DNA of 30,301 nucleotides from positions 1 to 30,301 of IMG/VR virus record IMGVR_UViG_3300043410_001853. The stretch is one strand, 5' to 3'. This DNA comes from a virus. A model generated the notes under the pieces. That model was not told the origin of the DNA, did not search any database, and worked only from the letters and a program-made list of their open reading frames with translations. Both the position numbers and the translations under genes were made by a program. Positions 2,911 through 18,414 of this stretch are shown here, piece after piece. Each line of letters opens with the position of its first letter. Within the stretch, counting starts at the first letter, position 1.

Positions 2911-3603
2911 CTAGACGATGGAAATGGACAGGTCTGACTCTTTCGCCAGTTCTGCGAGGTGCTTGTCCAGTTTCCGCAGCATGATCGCGCGCACGTTGTT
3001 ATCGTCTGCCAGCATGACCACGGCACGCAGGTTCTTCGCGTCCGCTTCCTTCAGATTGACAGTCTGGCCTGCCAGCTTCTTCGCCAGATTGCGATACTCG
3101 CTCACGTGCTTTTCCAGCGTGACAGCGTTGATTGACGGCACCTTGGCGCGGATGGTGTCCCGCAGAGGATCAGCCGCATGGACTCCGAACCACGCCTCGA
3201 TCGTCTCGCCATCCAGCCGACCAGTGCTGTTCTTGCCCGTGTAGAAGTAGGCCAGCACGAACGGCACTGCCAGCATGTCCGGGTCTACGAAGATGTCAGC
3301 GGTTGTCGTCATGCTGGACCCGTTCAACGCGTCATTCACGATGCTGCGAATGATCGTGTCCTGCGTGTCGTTGAACGTGGAGCGCAGCATGAAGGTGGCG
3401 TGCTCATTCTCAGGCACGATCAGGTCCAAGCTGTTATCGGGGATGGCCACCACGACGGCGGGACGGTCTGCGTCCACCTTGGTTTCATCCTTCTTGGTCT
3501 TGAACCGGATGATGGCAAGGCGGTGACCAGCAGGGCAACGGTCAGCGGATGTCTTATTCCACACGTTCACCTTGTATGGATCGTAGGATGCGAGGATGGA
3601 CAT
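2911..3603 (-). CDS. Hypothetical phage protein, 230 aa
   Basis: The frame is open to 3675, but the ATG at 3603-3601 has AGGAG seven bases upstream and gives a natural N-terminus (MSILASYDPYKVNVWNKT). The product is soluble. The central part (PDMLAVPFVLAYFYTGKN) is hydrophobic but short, and the C-terminal third (LEKHVSEYRNLAKKLAGQTVNLKEADAKNL onward) is strongly helical and may be a coiled coil. It is the largest complete leftward gene here and is flanked on both sides by hairpins. I recognise no enzyme motif. Being second from the divergent control region, it is probably expressed early and strongly; the function is unknown. Confidence 0.75.
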   Translation of the reverse strand: MSILASYDPYKVNVWNKTSADRCPAGHRLAIIRFKTKKDETKVDADRPAVVVAIPDNSLDLIVPENEHATFMLRSTFNDTQDTIIRSIVNDALNGSSMTTTADIFVDPDMLAVPFVLAYFYTGKNSTGRLDGETIEAWFGVHAADPLRDTIRAKVPSINAVTLEKHVSEYRNLAKKLAGQTVNLKEADAKNLRAVVMLADDNNVRAIMLRKLDKHLAELAKESDLSISIV

Positions 3604-3631
3604 AGGTAGGCTCCTGTTACTGGTCTGTGAT

Positions 3632-3649
3632 CCTAGCAGGCTTGCTAGG
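3632..3649. promoter_or_regulatory. Perfect 7-bp inverted repeat between two leftward genes
   Basis: CCTAGCA-GGCT-TGCTAGG is a perfect stem of seven pairs with a four-base loop, in the 95-base gap between the 91-residue and 230-residue genes, about 30 bases before the ATG at 3603. It could be an operator, a processing hairpin or a weak attenuator. No uridine run follows on the minus strand. Confidence 0.45.
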
Positions 3650-3698
3650 CGTATGCAGCATGACTGAGTGACCACGCTGCAAACGTCTAGGAAGCGGT

Positions 3699-4251: not shown

Positions 4252-4286
4252 CGTCAGGACAGACAATCCGCGCATACATTCGTCAT

Positions 4287-4310
4287 ACCGACAATCATAG
4301 GTGTGCGAAC
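4287..4310 (+). repeat. 24-bp near-direct repeat, copy 1
   Basis: Begins ACCGACA and ends with GTGTGC plus GAAC. It matches 21 of 24 bases of the copy at 4320-4343; the 33-base period would place both copies on about the same face of the helix. Confidence 0.6.
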
Positions 4311-4319
4311 AGTCTGGAA

Positions 4320-4343
4320 ACCGACATTCATACGTGTGCCAAC
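4320..4343 (+). repeat. 24-bp near-direct repeat, copy 2
   Basis: Begins ACCGACA and ends with GTGTGC plus CAAC, with three mismatches to copy 1. It is the element nearest the rightward operon, followed by the G6 tract and the AT-rich stretch. Confidence 0.6.
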
Positions 4344-4394
4344 GACCGCCTAGGGGGGTGGAAGCCTTTTTAACCTGGGGCCTGGAGACTATCC

Positions 4395-4432
4395 TTTACC
4401 ATCCTCCCTAAAATCCTAAAAAATTTCATACA
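4395..4432 (+). promoter_or_regulatory. AT-rich stretch, possible rightward late promoter
   Basis: TTTACC followed by CCTAAAATCCTAAAAAATTTCATA forms the only clearly AT-rich segment of the control region, about 150-180 bases before the first rightward gene. The short unit CCTAAAA is repeated in tandem (4407-4413 and 4415-4421). No convincing -35/-10 pair can be assigned, so the promoter call rests on composition and position only. Confidence 0.25.
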
Positions 4433-4578
4433 TCCAACTAACAACACGTGTGTACGAGTGTGCGGAAGAAGGAGTAGCGGGAATTCGTGGGTGACAATGG
4501 GAATGGGGGGAGTATCGTAGGAGGTGGAAGAAGTGAGGCGCGCAACGGATGGGTGCGTGTGTGGAAGGAGTGGCTGGA

Positions 4579-5016
4579 ATGCGTGGTGTGCGGAAGATCG
4601 TGGGAGCGAGTGTGGCACTGGCGCTGGGTGTGGCACTGGCTGCGAGCGTGGGTGTGAGCCGGAGTGTCGCGCAGGGGCAGGCAACGGGCGTGTTCGCAAC
4701 GGGGCTGGTCACAGTGGGTGCGACAGCAACGGATGTGTTCGCTGCGACTCCGAGTGGTGGAGCGACGAGGTATCGGATAAGGGTGCTGAACACGGACTTC
4801 GTGACGCCGAGTGGTGGGAACGGGTATGTGGTGTGGTGTCGCTGGGGAACTGCTGCAGGAGCGGCTGCATCCGTGCGTGGGACGGGTTCGTTTCCGGTGT
4901 TTCCTGGAGGCGGATTTGACGACTCGACGAACGGAGTCTCGCAGCAGGCGCTGAACTGCATCGGTGAGACGAGTGGCGCGAAGCTGTATTACGAGACGTA
5001 CACGGGTGGCATCTGA
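4579..5016 (+). CDS. Secreted protein 1: signal peptide plus small beta-rich domain, 145 aa
   Basis: The frame also contains an ATG at 4549, but the ATG at 4579 has AAGGAG eight bases upstream and starts directly with a classic Sec signal peptide: MRGVRKIV, a hydrophobic core of Ala, Val and Leu to about residue 27, and a likely signal-peptidase I site SVA|QG after residue 31. The mature part is Gly/Thr/Val-rich and beta-like, with two cysteines (WCRWG and LNCIG) that could form a disulphide in the periplasm. PVFPGGGFDD resembles turns common in phage beta-sandwich structural domains, but I cannot name a family. It is the first gene of the rightward late operon. Its destination (periplasm, outer membrane or virion) is unknown. 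Confidence 0.75.
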   Translation: MRGVRKIVGASVALALGVALAASVGVSRSVAQGQATGVFATGLVTVGATATDVFAATPSGGATRYRIRVLNTDFVTPSGGNGYVVWCRWGTAAGAAASVRGTGSFPVFPGGGFDDSTNGVSQQALNCIGETSGAKLYYETYTGGI

Positions 5017-5029
5017 GAGTGCAGCACTC
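5017..5029. repeat. Small perfect palindrome between two secreted-protein genes
   Basis: GAGTGC-A-GCACTC follows immediately after the stop codon at 5014-5016. In RNA it would give a 5-bp stem with loop CAG, perhaps a weak spacer or processing hairpin. Confidence 0.4.
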
Positions 5030-5066
5030 GAAGCTGGGCGCGCACGCAATGGAAGGAGAGTGGAGC

Positions 5067-5834
5067 ATGAGGAGTTACGTACAAGCTGGCGCCCGAATGG
5101 GAGTGGGAGCACTGCTGCTGGCAGGAATGCTGGGAGTGGGAGTAGCACGTGCGGATGAGATCGCACCTCCCTTTCCTGGCGCGGTGGTGAACGGAAGGAT
5201 CTTTCTTCCGCTGTCCACTGGTGCGGAGGCGCCGATCATCGCAAACACTGCGGTGCATACGCAGGTGATTGGTGGCACGACTGGGTACATCCTCATGGAT
5301 GGGTTCGACTCCACGAACCAACTGCGGTTTCGTCGTGCTGGTGGAACTCCTGCATCGCCGACGCTGCTGATCAACGGGCAGTCGATCGGACGTGTGACGT
5401 TCTCGGGCTACGATGGAAGTGCGTGGACGAACCCTGCTGCAGCGATGTTCGGCTTCTCTGCGAACAACTGGTCCACAACGGATCATGCTGCGCACCTCAC
5501 GTTTCAGACGACGAATGTGGGGAGCACCACGCTGACGGATGCTGCGCGCATTCAGCCGGATCAGTCGCTGTCGGTGGGCGGGAGCACGTGGGATCCTGCA
5601 GGCACGGGTGTGAACAAGTTGTACGTGATGGGACACGTGAACATCACGACTGGCTCCGTGTACAAGGTGAATAACGTGCAGGTGCTGGGAGCGCGAGACA
5701 CCGGGTGGACGGCGCCAACGGGCACTCCGCAGAAGACGGGCTTCGCAACGAGCACTGCTACGACGACGCAGCTGGCGCAGACGATGAAGAGCGTGATCGA
5801 CGCGCTGATTACGCATGGGATCCTGGGGCCGTGA
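5067..5834 (+). CDS. Secreted protein 2: signal peptide plus tail-fibre-type C-terminal module, 255 aa
   Basis: The chosen ATG (5067) has AAGGAG (5053-5058) eight bases upstream; earlier in-frame ATGs at 5019 and 5049 lack such a site. Residues 1-29 are a textbook signal peptide (MRSYVQAGARMGVG, a hydrophobic core, then ARA|DE). The middle (GYDGSAWTNPAAAMFGFSAN, then DHAAHLTFQTTNVGSTTLTD and ARIQPDQSLSVGGS) follows a pattern that I know from phage tail-fibre and tailspike repeats. Residues 208-255 (GARDTGWTAPTGT, then FATSTATTTQLAQTMKSVID and ALITHGILG) match the C-terminal module frequent in phage fibre proteins. A signal peptide on a fibre-like protein is odd, since virion fibres are normally assembled in the cytoplasm. 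It could be an exported receptor-blocking protein, or the N-terminus could have another use. It may also be the virion fibre itself. Confidence 0.75.
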   Translation: MRSYVQAGARMGVGALLLAGMLGVGVARADEIAPPFPGAVVNGRIFLPLSTGAEAPIIANTAVHTQVIGGTTGYILMDGFDSTNQLRFRRAGGTPASPTLLINGQSIGRVTFSGYDGSAWTNPAAAMFGFSANNWSTTDHAAHLTFQTTNVGSTTLTDAARIQPDQSLSVGGSTWDPAGTGVNKLYVMGHVNITTGSVYKVNNVQVLGARDTGWTAPTGTPQKTGFATSTATTTQLAQTMKSVIDALITHGILGP

Positions 5835-5854
5835 GTTGCGCGCGGAACTCCAGG

Positions 5855-6136
5855 ATGGTGGGGCTGATGCTACGTGCGGCACTTGTGCAAACGGTGCTAC
5901 TGTGTGGCGTCGGGCAGGCGTGGGCACAGAGTGGTGGTGATAGCATCACTGCACGTGCATCGGCCCCAGCTGCGGCACCGGCGGCAACCGTGCCTGTCAT
6001 GGACATCTCTCTGCGCTTGGAGTCATGCGTAGGAGTGGCGTTCACGCTTCTGCAGGAGAAGATCATGCTGGAAGCGGAAGTGCGGAAGCTGGTTGCGGAG
6101 CTGCGTGCAGCGAGAGTAGCGGGACAGAAGGAGTAG
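5855..6136 (+). CDS. Secreted protein 3: signal peptide plus short coiled coil, 93 aa
   Basis: The start is uncertain. GTG at 5831 overlaps the previous stop (GTGA), ATG at 5855 is chosen here, and ATG at 5867 would also work; none has a strong ribosome site. All three give the same hydrophobic core (LRAALVQTVLLCGVG) and a clear signal-peptidase I site AWA|QS. After an Ala/Pro linker (SAPAAAPAATVP), the C-terminal half (LLQEKIMLEAEVRKLVAELR) is helical with heptad-like spacing. Export plus a coiled coil recalls small phage periplasmic or lysis-accessory proteins, but no lipobox or second membrane segment supports a spanin. It ends four bases before the small terminase gene, whose ribosome site lies inside its last codons. 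Confidence 0.65.
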   Translation: MVGLMLRAALVQTVLLCGVGQAWAQSGGDSITARASAPAAAPAATVPVMDISLRLESCVGVAFTLLQEKIMLEAEVRKLVAELRAARVAGQKE

Positions 6137-6140
6137 TGTG

Positions 6141-6680
6141 ATGGCAGTCGACGTGCAGCGTATCAAGAGTCTACTCGGAGATGGGCTCACCACGGAAGTG
6201 GTTGCGCGTGCCGTCGGCTGCACCTCTTCGTACATCTCGCAACTCATGGCTGATGAGGACTTCCGTACGGAAGTTGCGGAAATGCGGGTGCGAGCACTGG
6301 CTGGGCACACCGAGCGGGATAAGCGGATTGACAGCATCGAGGATCGACTGCTCTCCAAGCTGGAGGAAGTGGTTCCGCACATGTACAAGCCGGCGGACAT
6401 TCTTCGTGCAACTGTCGCAGTGAACGCGATGAAGAGGCGGGGAGCTACCAGCAACGATCAGCAGAACATCATGCATACGCAGGTGGTGAACATCAATCTG
6501 CCTCCTGCTGCTGCACGACAGTTCGTTATCAATCAGGAAGGTGTTGTCATCGAGGCGGATAAGGAGACGCTGGTGACGATGCCTGCCACACAACTGATGC
6601 GGAAACTCGCGGAAGAAGCTGCGGGTACGCAGAAGGAGAAGTACGCAACTGCTGGGAGGTTCCTACGTGATGCTGGATAG
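6141..6680 (+). CDS. Probable terminase small subunit (HTH protein), 179 aa
   Basis: The ATG at 6141 has AAGGAG seven bases upstream (a GTG precedes it directly at 6138). Residues about 14-45 (LLGDGLTTEVVARAVGCTSS, YISQLMADEDFRTEV) form a helix-turn-helix in which GCTSSYISQLM fits the recognition helix. A charged helical stretch follows (RIDSIEDRLLSKLEEVV) and a C-terminal tail with NINLPPAAARQF. Small terminase subunits usually combine an N-terminal HTH that recognises the packaging site with an oligomerising helical core, and the gene lies one short gene before the large subunit. An ordinary transcription regulator is the alternative, but context makes it less likely. Confidence 0.7.
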   Translation: MAVDVQRIKSLLGDGLTTEVVARAVGCTSSYISQLMADEDFRTEVAEMRVRALAGHTERDKRIDSIEDRLLSKLEEVVPHMYKPADILRATVAVNAMKRRGATSNDQQNIMHTQVVNINLPPAAARQFVINQEGVVIEADKETLVTMPATQLMRKLAEEAAGTQKEKYATAGRFLRDAG

Positions 6681-6871: not shown

Positions 6872-8431
6872 ATGACTGCGCCGAAGGACTGGGCAAAGCT
6901 CATTGGTGTGGACGAGCTCACAGACACGCGTGTTCCAGACGGTGTTGGCGAGGCGGACATGCTGGAGAACAGCACGTACTCCTTCGACGTGGATGAGGTG
7001 CGAGCAGCTGCGGAACAGGATTTGGACTTCCTGGCTGCGCTAGCAATGCCGAACAACTTTGAGTTTGCGTTTCCCCCTGTGCTGAAGACTGCGTGGGAGC
7101 TCCTGCGAAAGAATGTGATGAACATCGAGGAGTTCCCACAGCTTGCGTTAGGGCTTCCGCGCGGGCATGGGAAGAGCACTATGGTGAAGCTGTTTTGCTT
7201 GTATCTGATACTCTTCTCGAAAACACGCTTCTTCCTCATCACGTCTGCAACGGAACAGCTCGCTACGAACTTCCTCTCGGATGTGATGGATTATCTGTCG
7301 GAACCGAACATCATTGCGGCTTTCGGAAACTGGAAGCTGTCACTGGAGACGGATACGAAGGTGCTGAAGAAGTTCGTGTTTCGCGGCCGTCCGATCGTGC
7401 TCGTAGCTGTGGGCGCTGGTGGGGCTGTGCGCGGCCTGAATCTGAAGAATGAGCGCCCGGATGTTGTCATCTTTGACGACATACAGACGCGGGAATGCAG
7501 CGAGAGTAAGATACAGAGTGACGCGCTGTCTCGTTGGATGGTGAACACCGCGATGAAGGCGAAGAGTCCGAAAGGTTGCTTGTTCATCTTCTGCGGGAAC
7601 ATGTTCCCTGGACCGAACTCACTGCTGCGGAAACTGAAGAACAGTAATGAGTGGGTGAAGTTCATCAGTGGCGCTATCCTGGCGAATGGGAAGGCGCTTT
7701 GGCCGGAACTGCGTAGCATGGCTTCGCTCATTAAGGAGCTGAATAACGACATTTCCATGGGTCACCCGGAAGCGTTCTTCTCGGAAGTGCTGAACGACAC
7801 GGAAACGGGTGTGAACAGCACGACGGATCTGTCGTTGCTAGCGGAGTGGAAGTGGACTGCGGAGGATCAGCCGCAAGGGAAGTTCATCATTGTGGATCCT
7901 GCGAACAATAAGTCGCACAGTGACAAGGTAGCGATCGGCTACGTGGAAGTGTACGATGGAACTCCTGCTCTGCGGAGGGTGCTGGAAGAGCGGCTCTCAC
8001 CAGGGGATACGATTCGGCAGGCGCTACTGATGGCTCTGCAGACTGGTACGAGGATCATCGCAGTGGAGTCCACCGCGTATCAGTACTCGCTTCTGTACTG
8101 GTTCACGGAAGTATGCAAGCAGCTGCGTATCACGGGTATCCAAGCGGTGGATATCTACACGGGTGTGCTGAACAAGAACGGACGTATCTCGGATGCGCTG
8201 AAGGAGCTTACAGCGGGAGAGCTCGTACTGCATCCGGATGTGAAGAGCGCCGTCACCTGGCAGGTGGTGAACTGGAACCCGCTGAAGAGAGATAACGTGG
8301 ATGGACTCCTGGATCTGCTCACGTACATGCGGAAAGTGGTGGAAGTGTACGCGTATGCGATTGCGACGGACAGCCACATACTGATTGACGAGTCGGAGCG
8401 TCCGGCTATGACGGAAGAGCATGCGTTCTGA
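6872..8431 (+). CDS. terL: Terminase large subunit (packaging ATPase-nuclease), 519 aa
   Basis: The motor that drives DNA into the prohead and cuts the concatemer. The N-terminal ATPase has Walker A GLPRGHGKST (residues 94-103, with K101) and Walker B DVVIFDD (197-203). The C-terminal RNase H-like nuclease shows IIVDPANN (D342), IIAVESTA (E399) and the closing acidic pair VDGLLDLL (D477 and D481), as expected for two-metal cleavage. The length is normal for the family. The ATG follows one base after the preceding stop, with a GAGGAAG-type site inside that gene. All catalytic residues I look for are present, so it should be functional. Confidence 0.95.
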   Translation: MTAPKDWAKLIGVDELTDTRVPDGVGEADMLENSTYSFDVDEVRAAAEQDLDFLAALAMPNNFEFAFPPVLKTAWELLRKNVMNIEEFPQLALGLPRGHGKSTMVKLFCLYLILFSKTRFFLITSATEQLATNFLSDVMDYLSEPNIIAAFGNWKLSLETDTKVLKKFVFRGRPIVLVAVGAGGAVRGLNLKNERPDVVIFDDIQTRECSESKIQSDALSRWMVNTAMKAKSPKGCLFIFCGNMFPGPNSLLRKLKNSNEWVKFISGAILANGKALWPELRSMASLIKELNNDISMGHPEAFFSEVLNDTETGVNSTTDLSLLAEWKWTAEDQPQGKFIIVDPANNKSHSDKVAIGYVEVYDGTPALRRVLEERLSPGDTIRQALLMALQTGTRIIAVESTAYQYSLLYWFTEVCKQLRITGIQAVDIYTGVLNKNGRISDALKELTAGELVLHPDVKSAVTWQVVNWNPLKRDNVDGLLDLLTYMRKVVEVYAYAIATDSHILIDESERPAMTEEHAF

Positions 8432-8456
8432 GTAACGAGTAACGTAGGAGAGTGAG

Positions 8457-10589
8457 ATGGGACGTCCTCCGCAAACGATGCAGATGGCTGACGCGACGGA
8501 AGAAGCACTGATCCGGTACTTCACGCAGTTGCAGATGAATACGACGGGACAGCTGCAGCTACGGGAAGCGCTGGAGTCGGTGGATCGCACGTATATGCGG
8601 GAAGTGGATCTCACCACGCAGCAGCTGGCTGCGAGGAACGCGAACTCACGTGGGGATCCGACGCAGTTTCAGAACATCACCGTTCCGGTCGTCATGCCGC
8701 AGGTGGAGTCCGCGCTTGCGTACTACATGAATGTGTTCCTGACGCAGTATCCCATCTTCAAGGTGGTGAGCACGCCAGGAAATGCGGACGCGTCCAGCAT
8801 GATGCAGGCTATCATCGAGGAGAACAGTGTTCGCGCTGGCTGGGCTCGCCAGCTGTTACTCGCATTCCGTGATGGGCTGAAGTACAACATGCAGGCTGTG
8901 GAATGCAGCTGGGATTCCATGACGAGCATGAACATTGGGAACAGCCGGGATAATCCGGGGAAGTCCGAAGTTCGGCGCGAACTGTGGAAGGGGAATGTGT
9001 TGCGACGGATTGATCCGTACAATGTGTTCTTCGATCCGCGTGTACCGCTTCCGGATATGCACGTGGATGGGGAGTTCGTAGGGTATCATACTATCATGAG
9101 TCGCCCTCGCTTCAAGCAGTATGCGAATGAGCTCAGTGGTGTGACGGATGCACCGCGCATCAACCAGGCGCTGCGTTCGAAGCACGGGAACTCGGCGCCT
9201 GCTGCGTTCAGTTCCGCAACGACGCCGTTCTCGTACTACATTCCGAGCGTTAATCCTTTCCCGCTAGGGAACGCGAACCAGCAGATGGACTGGATGGCGT
9301 GGGCACATGATCTTCCGTACAAGAGCGGCCGAACTGTGGACTATGCGAATAGCTATCTCGTGACGCGTGTGTACTGCAGGATCACACCGAGTGACTTCGG
9401 CATGAATGTGCCGGGGCCGAACACACCGCAGGTGTGGAAGTTCGTCGTGGTGAATGGGAACTGCATCCTGCACTACGAGCGACTACCGAACGTGCATAAC
9501 TTCATTCCTGTCTTCTTCGGACAGCCGATGGAGGATGGACTGGGTCTGCAGACGAAGAGCTTCGCGCAGAATGCGACGGATTTCCAGTCTGTGGCTTCCG
9601 CAATGATGAATGGGTTCATCGCGTCGAAGCGTCGACTCATCGGCGATCGCGTGCTGTACGATCCACTGCGCGTGCGTGGGGAGGATATCAACAACAGCAA
9701 TCCTGCTGCGAAGATACCGGTGCGGCAGGGCGCGTACGGAAAGCCTGTGAGCGAAGCGGTGTATCAGTTCCCGTATCGGGATGAAGCAACTGCTTCTCTG
9801 CTGCAGGGTTTCCAACTCGCCACGCAGATGGCGGATAAGGTGAACGGACAGAACCCTGCGCAGCAAGGGCAGTTCGTGAAGGGGAATAAGACCCAGACGG
9901 AATACATGGATATCATGGGTCATGGCAACAGTCGGAACCAGGCAATGGCGCTCATGACGGAGCTGCAGATGCTGGCGCCCTTGAAGGAGACGATCAAGCT
10001 GAACACCATGCAGTTCCAGGAGGATGGTGACGTGATGCGTCCATCCACGGGTGAGACTGTGACGGTGGACATGCTGACGCTTCGGCAGAAAGCTGTGCAG
10101 TTCGAAATCGGGGATGGCATCCTGCCGGCGGACAAGATCATGCACATGGACGTGTTTACGACTGCTGTGCAGGTGATTGGCTCCTCTCCGCAACTAGCGA
10201 GTGGGTACAATCTCGCACCGCTGTTCAGCTACATCATGAAGCAGCAGGGTGCGGATCTCGCTCCGTTCGAGAAGTCGGAAGCGCAGAGGAACTACGAACA
10301 GCAGATGGCGGTGTGGCAGCAAGCAGCTGCGGAAGCTGCGAAGACAGGAGCGCAGTTCAGCACTCCGATGCCGACTCCTCCGCAGGAGCCAACACCGCAG
10401 CAGAAGCAGCAGCAGGAAGCGCGCACTCCCACTGTTCACGGACGCATCGCAACGCAAGGAGGCACGAATGGCGCAACCACTTCCAACAATGTTCCAGCAG
10501 TTCCAGTTCAGCGAGGAGGACCTGGCGGCGCTGCAGTTCAGCCCGGAGCAGGAGCAGCTGATACAGCACCACATCGGCCAACTCGCTGA
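8457..10589 (+). CDS. Portal protein, 710 aa
   Basis: The portal forms the dodecameric ring at one head vertex through which DNA passes. The gene follows the large terminase after 25 bases, with TAGGAG before the ATG. The size and sequence (QNITVPVVMPQVESALAYYM, TQYPIFKVV, WKGNVLRRIDPYNVFFDPRV) fit the large portal type of podoviruses with SU10/phiEco32-like heads; the RIDPYNVFFDP motif near residues 183-193 is characteristic of portal stems. From about residue 610 the C-terminus is rich in Gln, Pro, Ala and Thr and is probably disordered. That tail overlaps the next gene in another frame for 122 bases, which may explain its composition. Confidence 0.88.
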   Translation: MGRPPQTMQMADATEEALIRYFTQLQMNTTGQLQLREALESVDRTYMREVDLTTQQLAARNANSRGDPTQFQNITVPVVMPQVESALAYYMNVFLTQYPIFKVVSTPGNADASSMMQAIIEENSVRAGWARQLLLAFRDGLKYNMQAVECSWDSMTSMNIGNSRDNPGKSEVRRELWKGNVLRRIDPYNVFFDPRVPLPDMHVDGEFVGYHTIMSRPRFKQYANELSGVTDAPRINQALRSKHGNSAPAAFSSATTPFSYYIPSVNPFPLGNANQQMDWMAWAHDLPYKSGRTVDYANSYLVTRVYCRITPSDFGMNVPGPNTPQVWKFVVVNGNCILHYERLPNVHNFIPVFFGQPMEDGLGLQTKSFAQNATDFQSVASAMMNGFIASKRRLIGDRVLYDPLRVRGEDINNSNPAAKIPVRQGAYGKPVSEAVYQFPYRDEATASLLQGFQLATQMADKVNGQNPAQQGQFVKGNKTQTEYMDIMGHGNSRNQAMALMTELQMLAPLKETIKLNTMQFQEDGDVMRPSTGETVTVDMLTLRQKAVQFEIGDGILPADKIMHMDVFTTAVQVIGSSPQLASGYNLAPLFSYIMKQQGADLAPFEKSEAQRNYEQQMAVWQQAAAEAAKTGAQFSTPMPTPPQEPTPQQKQQQEARTPTVHGRIATQGGTNGATTSNNVPAVPVQRGGPGGAAVQPGAGAADTAPHRPTR

Positions 10590-12503: not shown

Positions 12504-13718
12504 ATGACCACTGGTACCGCCACGAGCGCTGGTCTCGTTCAGAACCTCGCTGCGCTGTCCTTCGACAGCATGATCACTCGTCTGTTCCCCGGCGGTTCTG
12601 CACCGCTGTTCGGACTGACGAGCATGCTGCCGGCGGAGACCGCGCTGCAGACGGAACATGGCTTCTTCACGAAGACCATGATCTTCCCGTCGTTCAGCGT
12701 CACTGCGGACGCCACGTCTGCGGACACCACGCTGACCGTCAACTCGTCCGCGAACATCGTCGCCGGCATGCTCTTCCGCATCAACTCGACTGCGGAACAC
12801 ATTCTGGTCACGAGCGTTCCGACGAGCACTTCCATCACCGTGCAGCGTGCACGTGGTGGCTCCGCTGCTGCGATCACGAGCGGCATGGTGGCGTATCAGA
12901 TCGGCACTGCGTACGAGGAATCGTCGCTGCGTCCGGGTGCGCTCTCCATCCAGGAAGTGCGTGTCAGCAATCTGACGCAGATCTTCCGGAATACGTGGGC
13001 TGTCTCCGGCACGCTGGCTGCGGTGCAGGTGATCGCGGGTGACGGACGCGTTGCGGAGAACAAGCAGGACTGCGCGATGTTCCATGCGATGGACATCGAG
13101 CGTTCGCTGTTCTTCGGGAAGAAGTACGCCGGCACGCTGAACGGTCGTCCGTTCCGCACAATGGATGGGATCATCAACATCGTGTCGAGCAGCGCGTACT
13201 ACCCCGCTGGCGCGAGCGTGAACGTGACGACTGCTGGCAGCACGACGAACTACACGCAGCTGGAGACGGCGCTGGATCCGGTGTTCAACCAGGTGACGGA
13301 TCCGAAGTCGTCGGCGGAGCGTCTCGTGTTCGTGGGTGGCACCGCGAAGAAGGTGCTGAACAACATCGGTCGCCTGAACGGTACGTACCAGCTGGTGGAC
13401 AACCAGACGAACTGGGGCCTGCAGTTCAGCACGTTCAAGACGGCGCGTGGCATGTTCCGTCTGATCGAGCATCCGCTGTTCAACAGCAACACGAACTGGT
13501 CGAAGATGGCTGTCGTCGTCGACATTCCCAGCTTCTGCCTCGCGTACCTCGCCGGCCGGAAGACCTCCAACATGGAGTTCAACACGAAGGGTGATCAGGC
13601 GCAGGACAACGGCGTGGACGCTGTCGGCGGCACGCTCACGACCGAATGCACCTGCCTCGTGCGCAATCCTCCTGCGTGCGCGGTGATCTACAACCTCACT
13701 GCTGGCGCGCAGGGGTAA
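12504..13718 (+). CDS. Major capsid protein (DUF5309/SU10-like), 404 aa
   Basis: Forms the HK97-fold icosahedral shell. The sequence resembles the DUF5309 (SU10-type) major capsid family: an N-terminal stretch ending in SMLPAETALQTEHGFFTKTM, a small inserted beta domain near residues 68-105 (TLTVNSSANIVAGMLFRIN), the run NLTQIFRNTWAVSGTL, the acidic ERSLFFGKKY region, and DGIINIVSSS. The ribosome site TAGGAG lies ten bases before the ATG. Codon use here is the most biased in the operon (strong CTG, GCG, AAC and ACG preference), as expected for the most abundant protein. Paired hairpins stand on both sides of the gene. Confidence 0.88.
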   Translation: MTTGTATSAGLVQNLAALSFDSMITRLFPGGSAPLFGLTSMLPAETALQTEHGFFTKTMIFPSFSVTADATSADTTLTVNSSANIVAGMLFRINSTAEHILVTSVPTSTSITVQRARGGSAAAITSGMVAYQIGTAYEESSLRPGALSIQEVRVSNLTQIFRNTWAVSGTLAAVQVIAGDGRVAENKQDCAMFHAMDIERSLFFGKKYAGTLNGRPFRTMDGIINIVSSSAYYPAGASVNVTTAGSTTNYTQLETALDPVFNQVTDPKSSAERLVFVGGTAKKVLNNIGRLNGTYQLVDNQTNWGLQFSTFKTARGMFRLIEHPLFNSNTNWSKMAVVVDIPSFCLAYLAGRKTSNMEFNTKGDQAQDNGVDAVGGTLTTECTCLVRNPPACAVIYNLTAGAQG

Positions 13719-13720
13719 CA

Positions 13721-13734
13721 CACGCAGTAGCGTG
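13721..13734 (+). promoter_or_regulatory. Small hairpin just after the major capsid gene
   Basis: CACGC-AGTA-GCGTG, five perfect pairs with a four-base loop, starting two bases after the stop codon. Confidence 0.45.
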
Positions 13735-13747
13735 CGTAACGTAGCTG

Positions 13748-13773
13748 GTCCCGACTACGGCTTCTTTCGGGAC
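13748..13773 (+). terminator. Possible weak terminator or processing hairpin after the capsid gene
   Basis: GTCCCG pairs with CGGGAC across a 14-base loop and is followed by a pyrimidine-rich stretch with short U-runs (ATCCTTTCCTTCCTTCG). It is too imperfect for a strong intrinsic terminator. Partial termination here would raise capsid expression relative to the downstream genes. Confidence 0.4.
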
Positions 13774-13805
13774 ATCCTTTCCTTCCTTCGCAACAGGAGT
13801 CTCCA

Positions 13806-14402
13806 ATGTCAGGCGCCCAGACTGCGACCATCGCAGCACCGGAAGAAATCGAGTTCCTCGATGAACCCGTGTACTACTACTCGAACATGCCGTCGAATGC
13901 GGTCGTCACTCCGGGCGGTCTGCGTGCGGAGTTCTCGGATCACATCCTGCTCACGGTGGTGAAGCCGTTCGTCGATTACCTCGATGGTGAGATCGCACGT
14001 CGGAGCGAGATCTTCCGTCGGTGCACGCAGGAGGAGATCGTACGCTTCCGTGAGCGCACCATTCCGCAGGCGGTGCGGGAGACGGAGCTGCGTCAGCAGA
14101 TCGAAGCGCAGGTGCGTGCGGAGTACGAAGCGCGTGAACGGGAGCGTCTGCTGGCGGAGTCGCTGTCGGCGCGTTCGAGTTCGGCGATGAATGACATCGT
14201 GCGTGATCCGGGCGCTGCTGCTGCGGAAGCGCAGTACGCGGAAGAGCGTGTCGTGCAGGAAGCGGAAGCTGCGGAACGTGCTGCGGCGGAGAAGCTGGAA
14301 GCGGATGCGGCTGCGGCGGCTGCTGCGGAGAACGCGCTTTCCGTGCAGGATCGGCTGAAGGCACTGGCGAGCAATAACGCGCCGCTGGTGGAGAAGGAAT
14401 GA
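13806..14402 (+). CDS. Alanine/glutamate-rich coiled-coil protein, 198 aa
   Basis: AGGAG lies six bases before the ATG. After a short N-terminal segment with FLDEPVYYYSNMPSNAVVT, the protein is an almost unbroken, highly charged helix (RETELRQQIEAQVRAEYEA, RERERLLAES, then AEAAERAAAEKLEADAAAAA), clearly a coiled coil. It lies between the major capsid gene and a small membrane protein and its stop overlaps the next start (ATGA). It may be a head-vertex, neck or internal assembly factor. No specific family is recognised. Confidence 0.65.
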   Translation: MSGAQTATIAAPEEIEFLDEPVYYYSNMPSNAVVTPGGLRAEFSDHILLTVVKPFVDYLDGEIARRSEIFRRCTQEEIVRFRERTIPQAVRETELRQQIEAQVRAEYEARERERLLAESLSARSSSAMNDIVRDPGAAAAEAQYAEERVVQEAEAAERAAAEKLEADAAAAAAAENALSVQDRLKALASNNAPLVEKE

Positions 14403-14587
14403 ACGAGCACGCTGTTCCTTTCTGGCAGCAGAAGAGCACGTACGCCGGTCTTGGTGCGGCTATTCTGCTGATCGGAAACACGGTGCAGTCGTGGGACAGC
14501 CTGTCCACGGGTGGCATCCTGAACCTTCTCATCGCTGCAGGTCTCGCGTTCTTCAACGTGAGGATGCAGGAGTACAAGCCGAAGTAG
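14399..14587 (+). CDS. Small membrane protein with two helices, 62 aa
   Basis: The start overlaps the preceding stop as ATGA, so the two are coupled. Two hydrophobic stretches, YAGLGAAILLIGNTVQSW and GILNLLIAAGLAFFNVRM, are separated by a polar turn (DSLSTGG) and followed by a charged tail (EYKPK), like a class II holin or another small phage membrane protein. A membrane protein between head genes is unusual. Holin is a reasonable guess from size and topology, but no endolysin is next to it, so the function is uncertain. Confidence 0.65.
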   Translation: MNEHAVPFWQQKSTYAGLGAAILLIGNTVQSWDSLSTGGILNLLIAAGLAFFNVRMQEYKPK

Positions 14588-14600
14588 AAGAGCGAAACGC

Positions 14601-15272
14601 ATGACCTTCCAGGAACTTGTCGCAGCTGTAGTGCTGGAAACTGCTCGTGGGGATATGGGGTTTGTCACGGAAGGTGGTGACGGCCGTATTCCGCAGGCAG
14701 TGAAACGTGCGCTGAACTACCTGCATGGGTACGACAAGTTCTGGAGGGACTTGCGCCAGACTGCGGTGTCGTTCAGTTCCGCCGCGTATACGCAGAGCGT
14801 GGATACGCAGGAGGATCTCACGCGCTTTCGGCAGGTGAGTTTCATCATCGGAAATCCTGGAAGCGGCGTCACATCGCTGCTGGAAGTTCCGGATGGTGCG
14901 CGGTTCACGCAACGGTTCGAGTTGCTGGACCCGTCCGCGCTGCTGTTCCCTGGCAGGATCATTCCTGCGAACTCGTACTACGTAGCGGGAAGCATGATCG
15001 CATTGCGCTCCACGGTGTTGAGCCTGGAGAATGCGCTGATCGGCTACTACGCGTTTCCGAACCTGGATTACACTTCGGATGGTGGCGTGCACTTCGATAG
15101 CTGGGTTGCGCGTGACTACCCGTGGGTCGCGATTGCGAAAGCAACGAGTGACGTCTTCTCCGTTGAAGGGAAGCAGGAGATGGCGCGGAAGATGGACTCT
15201 CCCATTGTGGGGCAGTATCCGCAACTTCTCGCGCAGATGGTATCGGACAATATTGAGATGGAAGCGCGCTGA
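14601..15272 (+). CDS. Probable head-tail adaptor (connector) protein, 223 aa
   Basis: The position (after the head genes, before the nozzle-like protein) and size fit the adaptor ring that binds beneath the portal and accepts the tail nozzle. The N-terminus (MTFQELVAAVVLETARGD, then RIPQAVKRALNYLHGYDKFW) is helical like known adaptors, followed by a beta-rich part (FTQRFELLDPSALL) and SLENALIGYYAFPNL. The C-terminus DSPIVGQYPQLLAQM is helical. A weak GAAGAG-type site precedes the ATG. Its last base is shared with the next ATG (TGATG). Confidence 0.65.
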   Translation: MTFQELVAAVVLETARGDMGFVTEGGDGRIPQAVKRALNYLHGYDKFWRDLRQTAVSFSSAAYTQSVDTQEDLTRFRQVSFIIGNPGSGVTSLLEVPDGARFTQRFELLDPSALLFPGRIIPANSYYVAGSMIALRSTVLSLENALIGYYAFPNLDYTSDGGVHFDSWVARDYPWVAIAKATSDVFSVEGKQEMARKMDSPIVGQYPQLLAQMVSDNIEMEAR

Positions 15273-15856
15273 TGACATACTCTCCGAACCTGTTCAATCC
15301 GAATGAGCCTGTCATCGGGAACGTCGCTGGCACCGCTGCGGAGGAGTTTCGCCTGATCAAGACGGGCGGAATGTTCCTCGCGAAGAGTGCAGAGTGGGTG
15401 GATTACAGCAACACCACATCCTTCCAGTTTCCGTTGGACTACAACGTGGTGGCGGGATACCTTGGCACCACACGTACGTTACGGTTGGAAGCGTATGGAA
15501 GGATGCACAACACGAGTGGCGGGAACGTCACGTATGCGTTCTACGTGCAGCTCGGCGGCACGAACGTGTTCATTCCTTCGTTCATCGCCTCCACCGGCAC
15601 GGATGATGCGTGGATGCTGAGTGCGGATATCAAGAATAACAATGCAGGAAGTCAGTCGGCGCGCTGTGCGTTGGACGTGTACGGACCTCCCAGTTCGGCG
15701 GGCGCTCTGCAGAACATCAACACGCAAGTTGGTGCTGTGAACGTCGTCACGCTGAACACGGCGGTGGATCAGCTGTTCCGCTTCTCGATGCAGATGAACG
15801 TCGCGAGCGCGAACGCATCCTTTACGCTGTACGGTGCGCGTCTTCTGATCGGGTGA
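15272..15856 (+). CDS. Putative structural protein, 194 aa, beta-sandwich-like
   Basis: The start overlaps the previous stop by one base. The protein is rich in Asn, Gly, Thr and aromatic residues with alternating beta-like segments (FQFPLDYNVVAGYLGTTRTL, GNVTYAFYVQLGGTNVF, RFSMQMNVASANASFTLYGA). This resembles jelly-roll or carbohydrate-binding beta-sandwich proteins of phage tails. It lies between adaptor and nozzle genes, so a small neck appendage, whisker or fibre-anchoring protein is likely. No family name can be given. Confidence 0.6.
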   Translation: MTYSPNLFNPNEPVIGNVAGTAAEEFRLIKTGGMFLAKSAEWVDYSNTTSFQFPLDYNVVAGYLGTTRTLRLEAYGRMHNTSGGNVTYAFYVQLGGTNVFIPSFIASTGTDDAWMLSADIKNNNAGSQSARCALDVYGPPSSAGALQNINTQVGAVNVVTLNTAVDQLFRFSMQMNVASANASFTLYGARLLIG

Positions 15857-15859
15857 CTC

Positions 15860-17506
15860 ATGGCACGCTTCACTGTTCGCGCAACGCTGTCGAATGCGGT
15901 TTTCCCCTTTGCTACGGAGCTCTGGGGACGAAGCATAATCGTGCCCGGACAGGATATGAACTATGATCGCGCGCAGCTGAACCTGTCCGGACAAGTGCTG
16001 GATAAGGGGATACCGCAGGCGTACTACATGGAGAATGTGATCCCCACTGTGCAGGGGTATCAGTCTGTGTTCTTCCGGAAGGAAGGTTCCGCGTACAGCG
16101 GCGGAACGAAGAGCATCGGACGCGTCTTTCCCATTCACACGAATGATGGTGGTCGCTACCTGTTCTCTCCTGCGGAAGGGAAGAACTACATATACGATGC
16201 TGCGATCGACGATTGGCGGAGCGTCAGTCCGATTGCGCCTGGCACGCTGCAGGATAATGCGCTCGTCACCACGGCGCACATCAACGGACAGACGTACATC
16301 TTCTACGAAGGCTACGATGCTTTCGTGTATGACAACGCGGGTTTCGCACTCACGTCTGTCACGTTGTCCGCACTCGTGATTGCGAACATCACTGGTCTCT
16401 GCGCTGCGAATGGGCAGATGCTAGCGTGGTCCGGTACGACACTGTACTGGAGCAGCCTCACGGACGAGACGGACTTCACTCCGGATCTCACCACTGGTGC
16501 GGGAAGCGCTTCCGTGCAGGAGGCGAAGGGAAGGATCCTGCTTGTCCTGCCCACGAGTAATGGCGTGTTCCTGTACTGCACTGGGAACGTGGTGTATGGG
16601 AAGTACACTGGGAACGAGCAGTTCCCGTACAGCTATCATGAAGTGCCAGGCAGTGGCTTCATCTCGAATGCGAGTCAGGTGAGCTGGCATTCGAACATGT
16701 CGTATCAGATTGCGCAGACCAGTAATGGTATTCAGCAGTTCGATGGACAGACGTCGAGCAACATCTACAATGACATCACGGACTTCCTCTCCCTGATGCT
16801 GTACGAGGAGTACAACGCTTCGACGCAGGCGTTCGTGGCGGAGTATCTGTCCACGCCACTGTTCACCGCAATCGCTGTGGTGCAAGCGCGGTTCTTCGTC
16901 CTCTCATACGGGAAGGAACCGAACCGTTTCACGGATGCACTGATCTACGATCTGAATCTCAAGCGCTACGGGAAGCTGAAGCTTAATCATGTTGCGTGCT
17001 TCGAGTGGAACTTTCCGACGATACAGACGGCGCCCACCTACGAGCAGCTGATGAACACCACGTACGCGGATCTCATGACTACCACGTATGATGACCTCGA
17101 TGCTGCGTATTCCCCGAATGTGACGCAGAAAGGAGGCGTCGCGTTCGTCACGGAGAACGGACTGCTCTACGTGATGGATACGTCGCAAGGCGCCATTCCA
17201 GCTACTGCGTTGGAGAGTTCCTCCCGTCTGGTGATCGGCAAGTTCCAGATGGATCGCCTCGGAGGCATCGAGCATCACATCACGGAAGTGGAGTCCGTGG
17301 ATAGCAATAGTGACTTCACCTGCAAGATCATTCCTTCGTATGACGGGAAGACGCTGCTAACTCCGCGTACGACTTTCGAGCAGAGTCCGGCGGCCAAACT
17401 TCGGCGCTTCTCACGACACGTGACAGGGGAGAATATCTCCTGCTTCTTCGAAGGGCGGTTCAACCTGAACACGCTCCTTATCACGTATACGCGGAGGAAC
17501 GCGTAA
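15860..17506 (+). CDS. Tail nozzle / tail tubular protein B-like, beta-propeller, 548 aa
   Basis: Forms the hexameric nozzle of the short tail below the adaptor. The N-terminal signature GIPQAYYMENVIPTVQGYQS, the propeller repeats (YLFSPAEGKNYIYD, QTYIFYEGYDAFVYDN) and the segment WSSLTDETDFTPDLTTGAGS (from residue 197) with GRILLVLPTSNGVFLYCTGN are typical of podovirus nozzle proteins. It starts four bases after the previous stop with only a weak GGGTGA site, and its last base is the first of the next ATG (TAATG), so coupling is probable. Confidence 0.8.
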   Translation: MARFTVRATLSNAVFPFATELWGRSIIVPGQDMNYDRAQLNLSGQVLDKGIPQAYYMENVIPTVQGYQSVFFRKEGSAYSGGTKSIGRVFPIHTNDGGRYLFSPAEGKNYIYDAAIDDWRSVSPIAPGTLQDNALVTTAHINGQTYIFYEGYDAFVYDNAGFALTSVTLSALVIANITGLCAANGQMLAWSGTTLYWSSLTDETDFTPDLTTGAGSASVQEAKGRILLVLPTSNGVFLYCTGNVVYGKYTGNEQFPYSYHEVPGSGFISNASQVSWHSNMSYQIAQTSNGIQQFDGQTSSNIYNDITDFLSLMLYEEYNASTQAFVAEYLSTPLFTAIAVVQARFFVLSYGKEPNRFTDALIYDLNLKRYGKLKLNHVACFEWNFPTIQTAPTYEQLMNTTYADLMTTTYDDLDAAYSPNVTQKGGVAFVTENGLLYVMDTSQGAIPATALESSSRLVIGKFQMDRLGGIEHHITEVESVDSNSDFTCKIIPSYDGKTLLTPRTTFEQSPAAKLRRFSRHVTGENISCFFEGRFNLNTLLITYTRRNA

Positions 17507-18114: not shown

Positions 18115-18414
18115 ATGCCGCAGGATATAAACGAACGCCTTGCCAGGCTGGAGGCAGACATGACGTCGATGAAGCAAGCCTTCGTGCGACACTCAGAAGT
18201 CGCCACGTCCAACACGCAGGAACTGAAGGACCTACGTGCGGATATGTCTACGCTGCTGGAGATCTCGCAGAACATCGAGAGTGGCATGAAACTCGCGGTG
18301 ATGGGCGGGAAAGCTGCGAGATGGGTGGGCGGAACGGTGGTGAGCATCATTGCGCTGGTGCAAGCGTACTACTACGTGAAGACCGGAACACCGCCGAGTA
18401 TCACACTGAAGTGA
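18115..18414 (+). CDS. Coiled-coil protein with C-terminal membrane helix (XhlA-like layout), 99 aa
   Basis: GGGGGT precedes the ATG at seven bases. Residues 1-60 are a coiled coil (NERLARLEADMTSMKQAFV, then NTQELKDLRADMSTLLEI) and residues about 67-90 contain one membrane segment (RWVGGTVVSIIALVQAYYYV). This layout is shared with XhlA-type haemolysin/holin accessory proteins and with several unclassified phage proteins; the similarity is architectural only. A longer frame starting at 18096 reads as noise and is rejected. It is the last small gene before the ejection proteins and is followed by a hairpin. Confidence 0.7.
   Translation: MPQDINERLARLEADMTSMKQAFVRHSEVATSNTQELKDLRADMSTLLEISQNIESGMKLAVMGGKAARWVGGTVVSIIALVQAYYYVKTGTPPSITLK

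Follow-up and report, generated by a model that had tools for sequence, protein, structure and literature searches.

Phages are known to encode exported proteins that alter the surface of the infected cell, including Llp of T5 and Lom and Bor of lambda. Of these, Lom forms a barrel in the outer membrane, and the other two are lipoproteins. Phage-like fibres and spikes that leave the cytoplasm have been described in bacteria. The mosaic adhesive trimer (MAT) fibres of Bdellovibrio resemble phage fibres, are preceded by signal peptides and serve to recognise the prey surface, and they are defined by a conserved beta-rich domain of ~130 aa directly after the signal peptide, a long bacterial fibre and an S74 or NS74 tip (PMC10769870). 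Likewise, Pantoea WceF is a bacterial secreted enzyme with a tailspike fold and a Tat signal (PMC7949094). Exported fibres, secreted spike-fold enzymes and exported phage exclusion proteins are each already known separately, and the literature that we searched describes neither arrays of exported tail fibres nor a recurrent phage module of exported fibres and spikes in virion clusters.

Here, we describe a locus in a 30,301-nt virus record (IMGVR_UViG_3300043410_001853, positions 1-30,301; hereafter, the window) in which a fibre gene and two smaller genes, all three with predicted signal peptides, precede the terminase genes. The large terminase, TerL (6872-8431, + strand; phrog_38, E 2.8e-52), which served as the landmark for fetching relatives, shares 33-35% identity with the TerL proteins of Polaromonas phage Tiera, Aeromonas phage P5, Pseudomonas phages PaP2 and PaMx41, and EBPR podovirus 3. 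Identity to PaP2 and PaMx41, members of the Fredfastierviridae, is 33-34%, and a possible family relationship was considered on this figure. A scan of genomes for clues to the host picked up relatives of TerL solely in MAGs with the labels Coxiella, Anaerolineae and Ponticaulis, from which no host could be assigned.

Three adjacent genes with predicted signal peptides open the late operon

The divergent early (- strand) and late (+ strand) operons are separated by a control region at 4280-4578, where the one promoter-like match (4491-4518) is at chance level. The late operon begins with three + strand genes whose products each carry a predicted Sec signal peptide: gene A (4579-5016; 145 aa; SRSVA/QG, cut after residue 31), gene B (5067-5834; 255 aa; GVARA/DE, cut after residue 29) and gene C (5855-6136; 93 aa; QAWA/QS). 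Anti-Shine-Dalgarno pairing is best, and the ribosome-binding site good, at the starts of A (4579; -8.4) and B (5067; -9.2). For C, the ribosome-binding site supports a start at 5867 (-7.8; 89 aa) better than one at 5855 (-3.5), and the signal peptide is the same with either. The gaps from A to B, from B to C and from C to the small terminase gene are 50, 20 and 1 base, respectively. This last gene, TerS (6138-6680, + strand), is the first past the trio and was assigned by a terminase match (phrog_16503, E 6e-5) and by alignment with 11 relatives. No terminator-like site was found between A-C and the terminase. Since A-C read directly into the terminase, they are probably late genes.

Signal peptides were scored with a home-made heuristic (charged n-region, hydrophobic h-region and AXA-type site) rather than with SignalP, using a threshold of 4.8; for comparison, OmpA, PhoA, MalE, Bla and LamB score 5.3-6.1. 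On this scale A reaches 6.2, B 5.7 and C 5.0-5.1, and no other gene among the 31 of the window attains the threshold. The background in related phages is 9/514 late genes at or above 4.8, several of which look like real signal peptides. Shuffling each protein's own N-terminus gave the real score in 44 of 5000 trials for B, 59 of 5000 for A and 270 of 5000 for C, the weakest of the three. The first-pass annotation had pointed to three adjacent genes with signal peptides (SVA/QG, ARA/DE and AWA/QS) before the terminase, and the genes, the sites and the heuristic scores all agree with it.

Because the predictor is a heuristic and valine- and alanine-rich N-termini could mimic hydrophobicity, with C as the weakest case, the three N-termini might be hydrophobic by chance and A-C might remain in the cytoplasm. 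We consider this very improbable, given that three consecutive positives stand against the low background rate, that nine phages encode signal peptides at this slot or next to it, and that the exported class bears an even-cysteine signature, both described below. By the heuristic score, A, B and C have the n-, h- and c-regions and the AXA-type site of Sec substrates of signal peptidase I, and a reading of their sequences shows no lipobox. For this last reason, a reading of the trio as lipoprotein exclusion genes was set aside. The lack of a lipobox, together with the fibre character of B, also distinguishes the trio from Llp, Bor and Lom.

B is a fibre-like protein with a predicted signal peptide

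The identity of B as a fibre is well supported by its matches, and its export is predicted. The shaft (residues ~79-191) matches the Bdellovibrio MAT fibres 8on4, 8oml and 8ol4 (phmmer E 5e-4 to 8e-3), the middle of the protein matches fibre proteins (PHROG 9942 tail fiber, E 6.8e-7), and the tip (residues ~189-249) matches tail needles, both in PHROG 1219 (E 1.2e-9, over residues ~190-247 only) and in the PDB (5bu8 needle, E 4e-5, and also gp26 entries). Among 50,697 phage records, B has partial fibre or needle matches only. Pfam returned no domain for B, and no catalytic domain was seen in it.

Like MAT fibres, B has a signal peptide and, behind it, a shaft that resembles phage fibres and is homologous to MAT chains. 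However, MAT fibres are encoded by a bacterial predator, are much longer and end in S74 or diverse adhesive tips, whereas B is a 255-aa phage protein with a needle-matching tip and no Pfam domain, and the defining beta-rich domain, fibre length and tip of MAT proteins are not seen in it. The tip corresponds to the C-terminal region of the P22 gp26 / HS1 needle, but tail needles are virion proteins that close the portal and are not exported, and B has a signal peptide where needles have their N-terminal plug domain. The MAT-like shaft, along with the precedent of a bacterial secreted tailspike-fold enzyme in WceF (PMC7949094), would suit surface adhesins or conversion factors serving the infected cell, a carrier cell or a long-lived infection rather than phage spread. 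We regard such a role as decidedly improbable for the trio, which reads straight into the terminase and is thus probably expressed late. Nor did an integrase come to notice during an analysis directed at other genes.

The window also encodes a separate, canonical virion-fibre-like protein (15272-15856, + strand), which has no signal peptide. Its N-terminal motif, (T/A)Y(S/T)P...AAEFR, also given as MxYxPxx...AxAEFRxxK, is conserved in the window and its relatives and is common to G001-G005. This conservation suggests that the N-terminus is the virion anchor of the unexported fibre. The motif is missing from B.

The smaller proteins A and C

Mature A, of 114 aa, contains exactly two cysteines and is probably a small domain with one disulfide. 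A protein search of the 50,697 phage records found no relatives of A, Pfam gave none, and the best PHROGs match reaches only E 0.97. An AlphaFold model of A has a mean pLDDT of 38 and is uninformative. B is without cysteine and mature C has a single one, and the disulfide argument directly covers A alone among the trio.

C consists, after its signal peptide, of an Ala/Pro linker and a C-terminal coiled-coil-like segment, and no sequence relatives were found in Pfam, PHROGs or the 50,697 phage records. Small proteins of similar style, with a signal peptide and a coiled coil, sit near genes of the A-type family described below in L203, L210 and L215, and the one in L203 weakly matches an Rz-like spanin family (E 0.0066). 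Preparation of the envelope for lysis was among the functions put forward in the first-pass annotation. In this case, the trio would ready the envelope for lysis or progeny exit, with C acting like a spanin and A and B loosening the glycan of the outer envelope. The faint resemblance of C-like proteins to spanins and the lipoprotein-like genes at the same position in two relatives fit such a role, as does gp40 of Xanthomonas phage PBR31, an esterase with a signal peptide that, according to its authors, perhaps aids lysis (PMC10975493). Two-component spanins pair an uncleaved N-terminal anchor and a periplasmic coiled coil with a lipoprotein partner, and C combines a coiled-coil-like end with an AWA cleavage site and no family match. 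On balance the lysis function has become weaker, though C leaves some room for it, and we judge it improbable. We saw no outer-membrane lipoprotein in the window that could partner C, and B has the character of a fibre rather than of a lysis protein. Moreover, the lysis cassette of PaMx41 (gp16-gp19) lies mid-operon, and a holin-like gene of the window (18115-18414) is comparably placed. The product of this gene, which longest-ORF calling missed, is a 99-aa protein with a coiled coil and a C-terminal membrane segment. We recognised no endolysin among the genes of the window.

A variable cargo slot upstream of TerS

Two TerL scans and one TerS scan of viral contigs surveyed what lies between TerS and the divergent early gene. 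It had been suggested at the outset to look for the same trio upstream of terL in related phages. In most relatives this position is empty, and in the closest clade it is a slot with variable cargo, which in some phages is a pair of one small and one large exported protein. Signal-peptide proteins lie in or beside the slot in 9 of the 14 slot-bearing relatives. Counted by gene, they make up 14/42 slot genes in 14 phages (a hand tally) against 9/514 late genes, a difference with a Fisher p of ~1e-11.

The exported pair, a small two-cysteine protein and a large fibre or spike, is found in three of the nine (L011, L100 and L013/L167). In L013/L167 the large protein, of ~823 aa once the overlap is subtracted, spans the contig ends and looks beta-helix-like from its sequence. 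L013 (IMGVR_UViG_3300009709_000031) has a 12-base terminal overlap and so is probably a complete circular map. Other slots hold two fibre paralogues with a signal-peptide protein (L008), an SGNH esterase (L012), a tail protein accompanied by small genes (L095 and L130) or lipoprotein-like genes (L014 and L018). Exactly two cysteines are present in the mature part of 8/9 small exported slot proteins, window A included, compared with 3/23 late proteins of similar size; one of these eight, from L014, is encoded in the interval that separates TerS from TerL. In relatives, two large exported proteins contain 10 and 8 cysteines.

Several other genes of these regions deserve mention. A family of small unexported genes with the pattern VY...GxYY...P...D...P lies beside TerS in the same slot of several relatives (L012 508-762, L097 2048-2311, L098 348-617, L013 1681-1959 and L007 3343-3579). 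Beside the control region is a conserved protein of ~220-260 aa (window 2911-3675, - strand; L011 2476-3132, L097 264-971 and L100 518-1258 (+)), whose gene faces TerS in some relatives and points the opposite way in others. Finally, L100/G004 encodes a second exported spike-like protein of ~885 aa at 13612-16281, in the middle of the late operon and near the canonical fibre gene.

An exported A-type family and cysteine parity

A search begun with the small protein of L167 and continued with its family, whose members are numbered within L174-L220, placed an A-type two-cysteine domain in ~46 viral contigs. The domain is found in two slot phages, L100 (family HMM E 4e-16) and L167 (1e-35, with L167 among the training sequences), and the contigs include phages of other lineages with other terminases and portals. 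Window A does not rise above background against the family (HMM E 0.45; hhalign probability 2%), and homology of A to A' of L011 was tested and not found. The family evidence bears on A through position, size, signal peptide and cysteine pair only, not through homology.

All 42 A-type members with complete starts carry signal peptides by the heuristic score, L180 via an internal start, and their genes often adjoin large exported fibre- or spike-like proteins. The exported spike of L204 is of pectate-lyase type (Pfam E 4.7e-7), and the large exported protein of L201 is of a glycine-rich tail-fibre type. The A-type family, when modelled (pLDDT 60), is beta-rich and has no significant match in the PDB, and the best viral match is an uncharacterised protein of Ralstonia phage RSK1. 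A-type genes were not found in 385 bacterial genomes, from the class of a Ponticaulis MAG, or in plasmids.

Cysteine-containing exported proteins of at least 200 aa at A-type loci have an even number of cysteines in 40/42 cases, versus 27/73 among their non-exported neighbours (p ~1e-10). The set holds near-duplicate contigs, and removal of five leaves 35/37 even. Even cysteine counts in the exported proteins point to disulfides and to real export.

In several lineages the exported genes lie within virion clusters, beside portal, capsid-region or terminase genes. This placement, the tail-needle and fibre domains of B, and the richness of many exported proteins in paired cysteines are what would be expected if the exported proteins were true virion parts, either fibres or decorations, that pass into the periplasm for disulfide formation and dock on virions during or after lysis. 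We take this to be the main rival explanation and nevertheless think it rather unlikely. Virions of tailed phages are assembled in the cytoplasm. Moreover, a second, unexported fibre is encoded by the window phage and by its relatives, and the conserved N-terminal anchor of this fibre is missing from the exported ones. Most relatives have nothing in the slot, so its cargo is dispensable.

Proposed function and wider occurrence

The fact that a separate unexported fibre is kept, coupled with the absence of the module from most relatives and the presence of exported spikes of glycan-degrading type, leads us to favour an envelope-acting, receptor-directed role. We tentatively propose, with a confidence somewhat short of even, that A-C are an exported accessory module directed at the receptor outside the cytoplasm, which blocks superinfection and re-adsorption. 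A, B and C would be made late, from the head of the late operon, exported via Sec, cut by signal peptidase and active outside the cytoplasm. B would form a trimeric fibre that carries a signal peptide in place of the virion anchor and stays off the virion, with C as a coiled-coil partner and A as a small domain with one probable disulfide. The module may bind receptor glycan both in the infected cell's envelope and on the debris of that cell, and the beta-helix versions of sister phages would cut it. Masking or trimming of the receptor glycan would then block both superinfection and the re-adsorption of progeny. B may act on the glycan during its periplasmic construction, or after lysis; the route by which it would pass from the periplasm to surface glycan before lysis is unexplained and counts against the model.

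The spikes of L013/L167 and L204 have signal peptides and appear to be of beta-helix or pectate-lyase type, and in this they are similar to WceF. Window B, in contrast, is not a beta-helix. WceF differs in being encoded by a bacterium and in having a Tat signal.

An envelope-acting module had been suggested in the first-pass annotation, with receptor masking or superinfection exclusion as possible functions. Action on the envelope is a consequence of export. The idea of an exported module gains from the same layout in relatives and from the even cysteine counts, and masking or exclusion is the most plausible of the functions offered, given that B is a fibre and that the exports of sister phages include beta-helix spikes. 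That the three proteins share a function is still something we infer. The fibre-like nature of B, the variable cargo slot and the recurrence of the pattern in other phage lineages are additions to that annotation.

Recurrence beside particle-building genes in many unrelated uncultured phages suggests a little-recognised envelope-acting toolset. A broader reading, which we see as possible but doubtful, is that many tailed phages of Gram-negative hosts carry Sec-exported arrays of fibres and spikes, disulfide-bonded in the periplasm, that would never be on the virion and would be secreted to mask or destroy receptors, in the manner of influenza neuraminidase. Annotation routinely treats phage fibre-like genes as coding for receptor-binding proteins of the virion, and host-range prediction makes use of them. 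If a whole class of these proteins is exported instead, such predictions would choose the wrong gene, and phages would own an unrecognised envelope toolkit. A test combining signal peptide and cysteine parity provides a simple discriminator between exported and virion fibres in any genome. As a further observation at A-type loci, the late region of L170 encodes an exported DUF1996 protein (7362-8612; Pfam E 7.9e-34), with an A-type gene and an SGNH-like one nearby.
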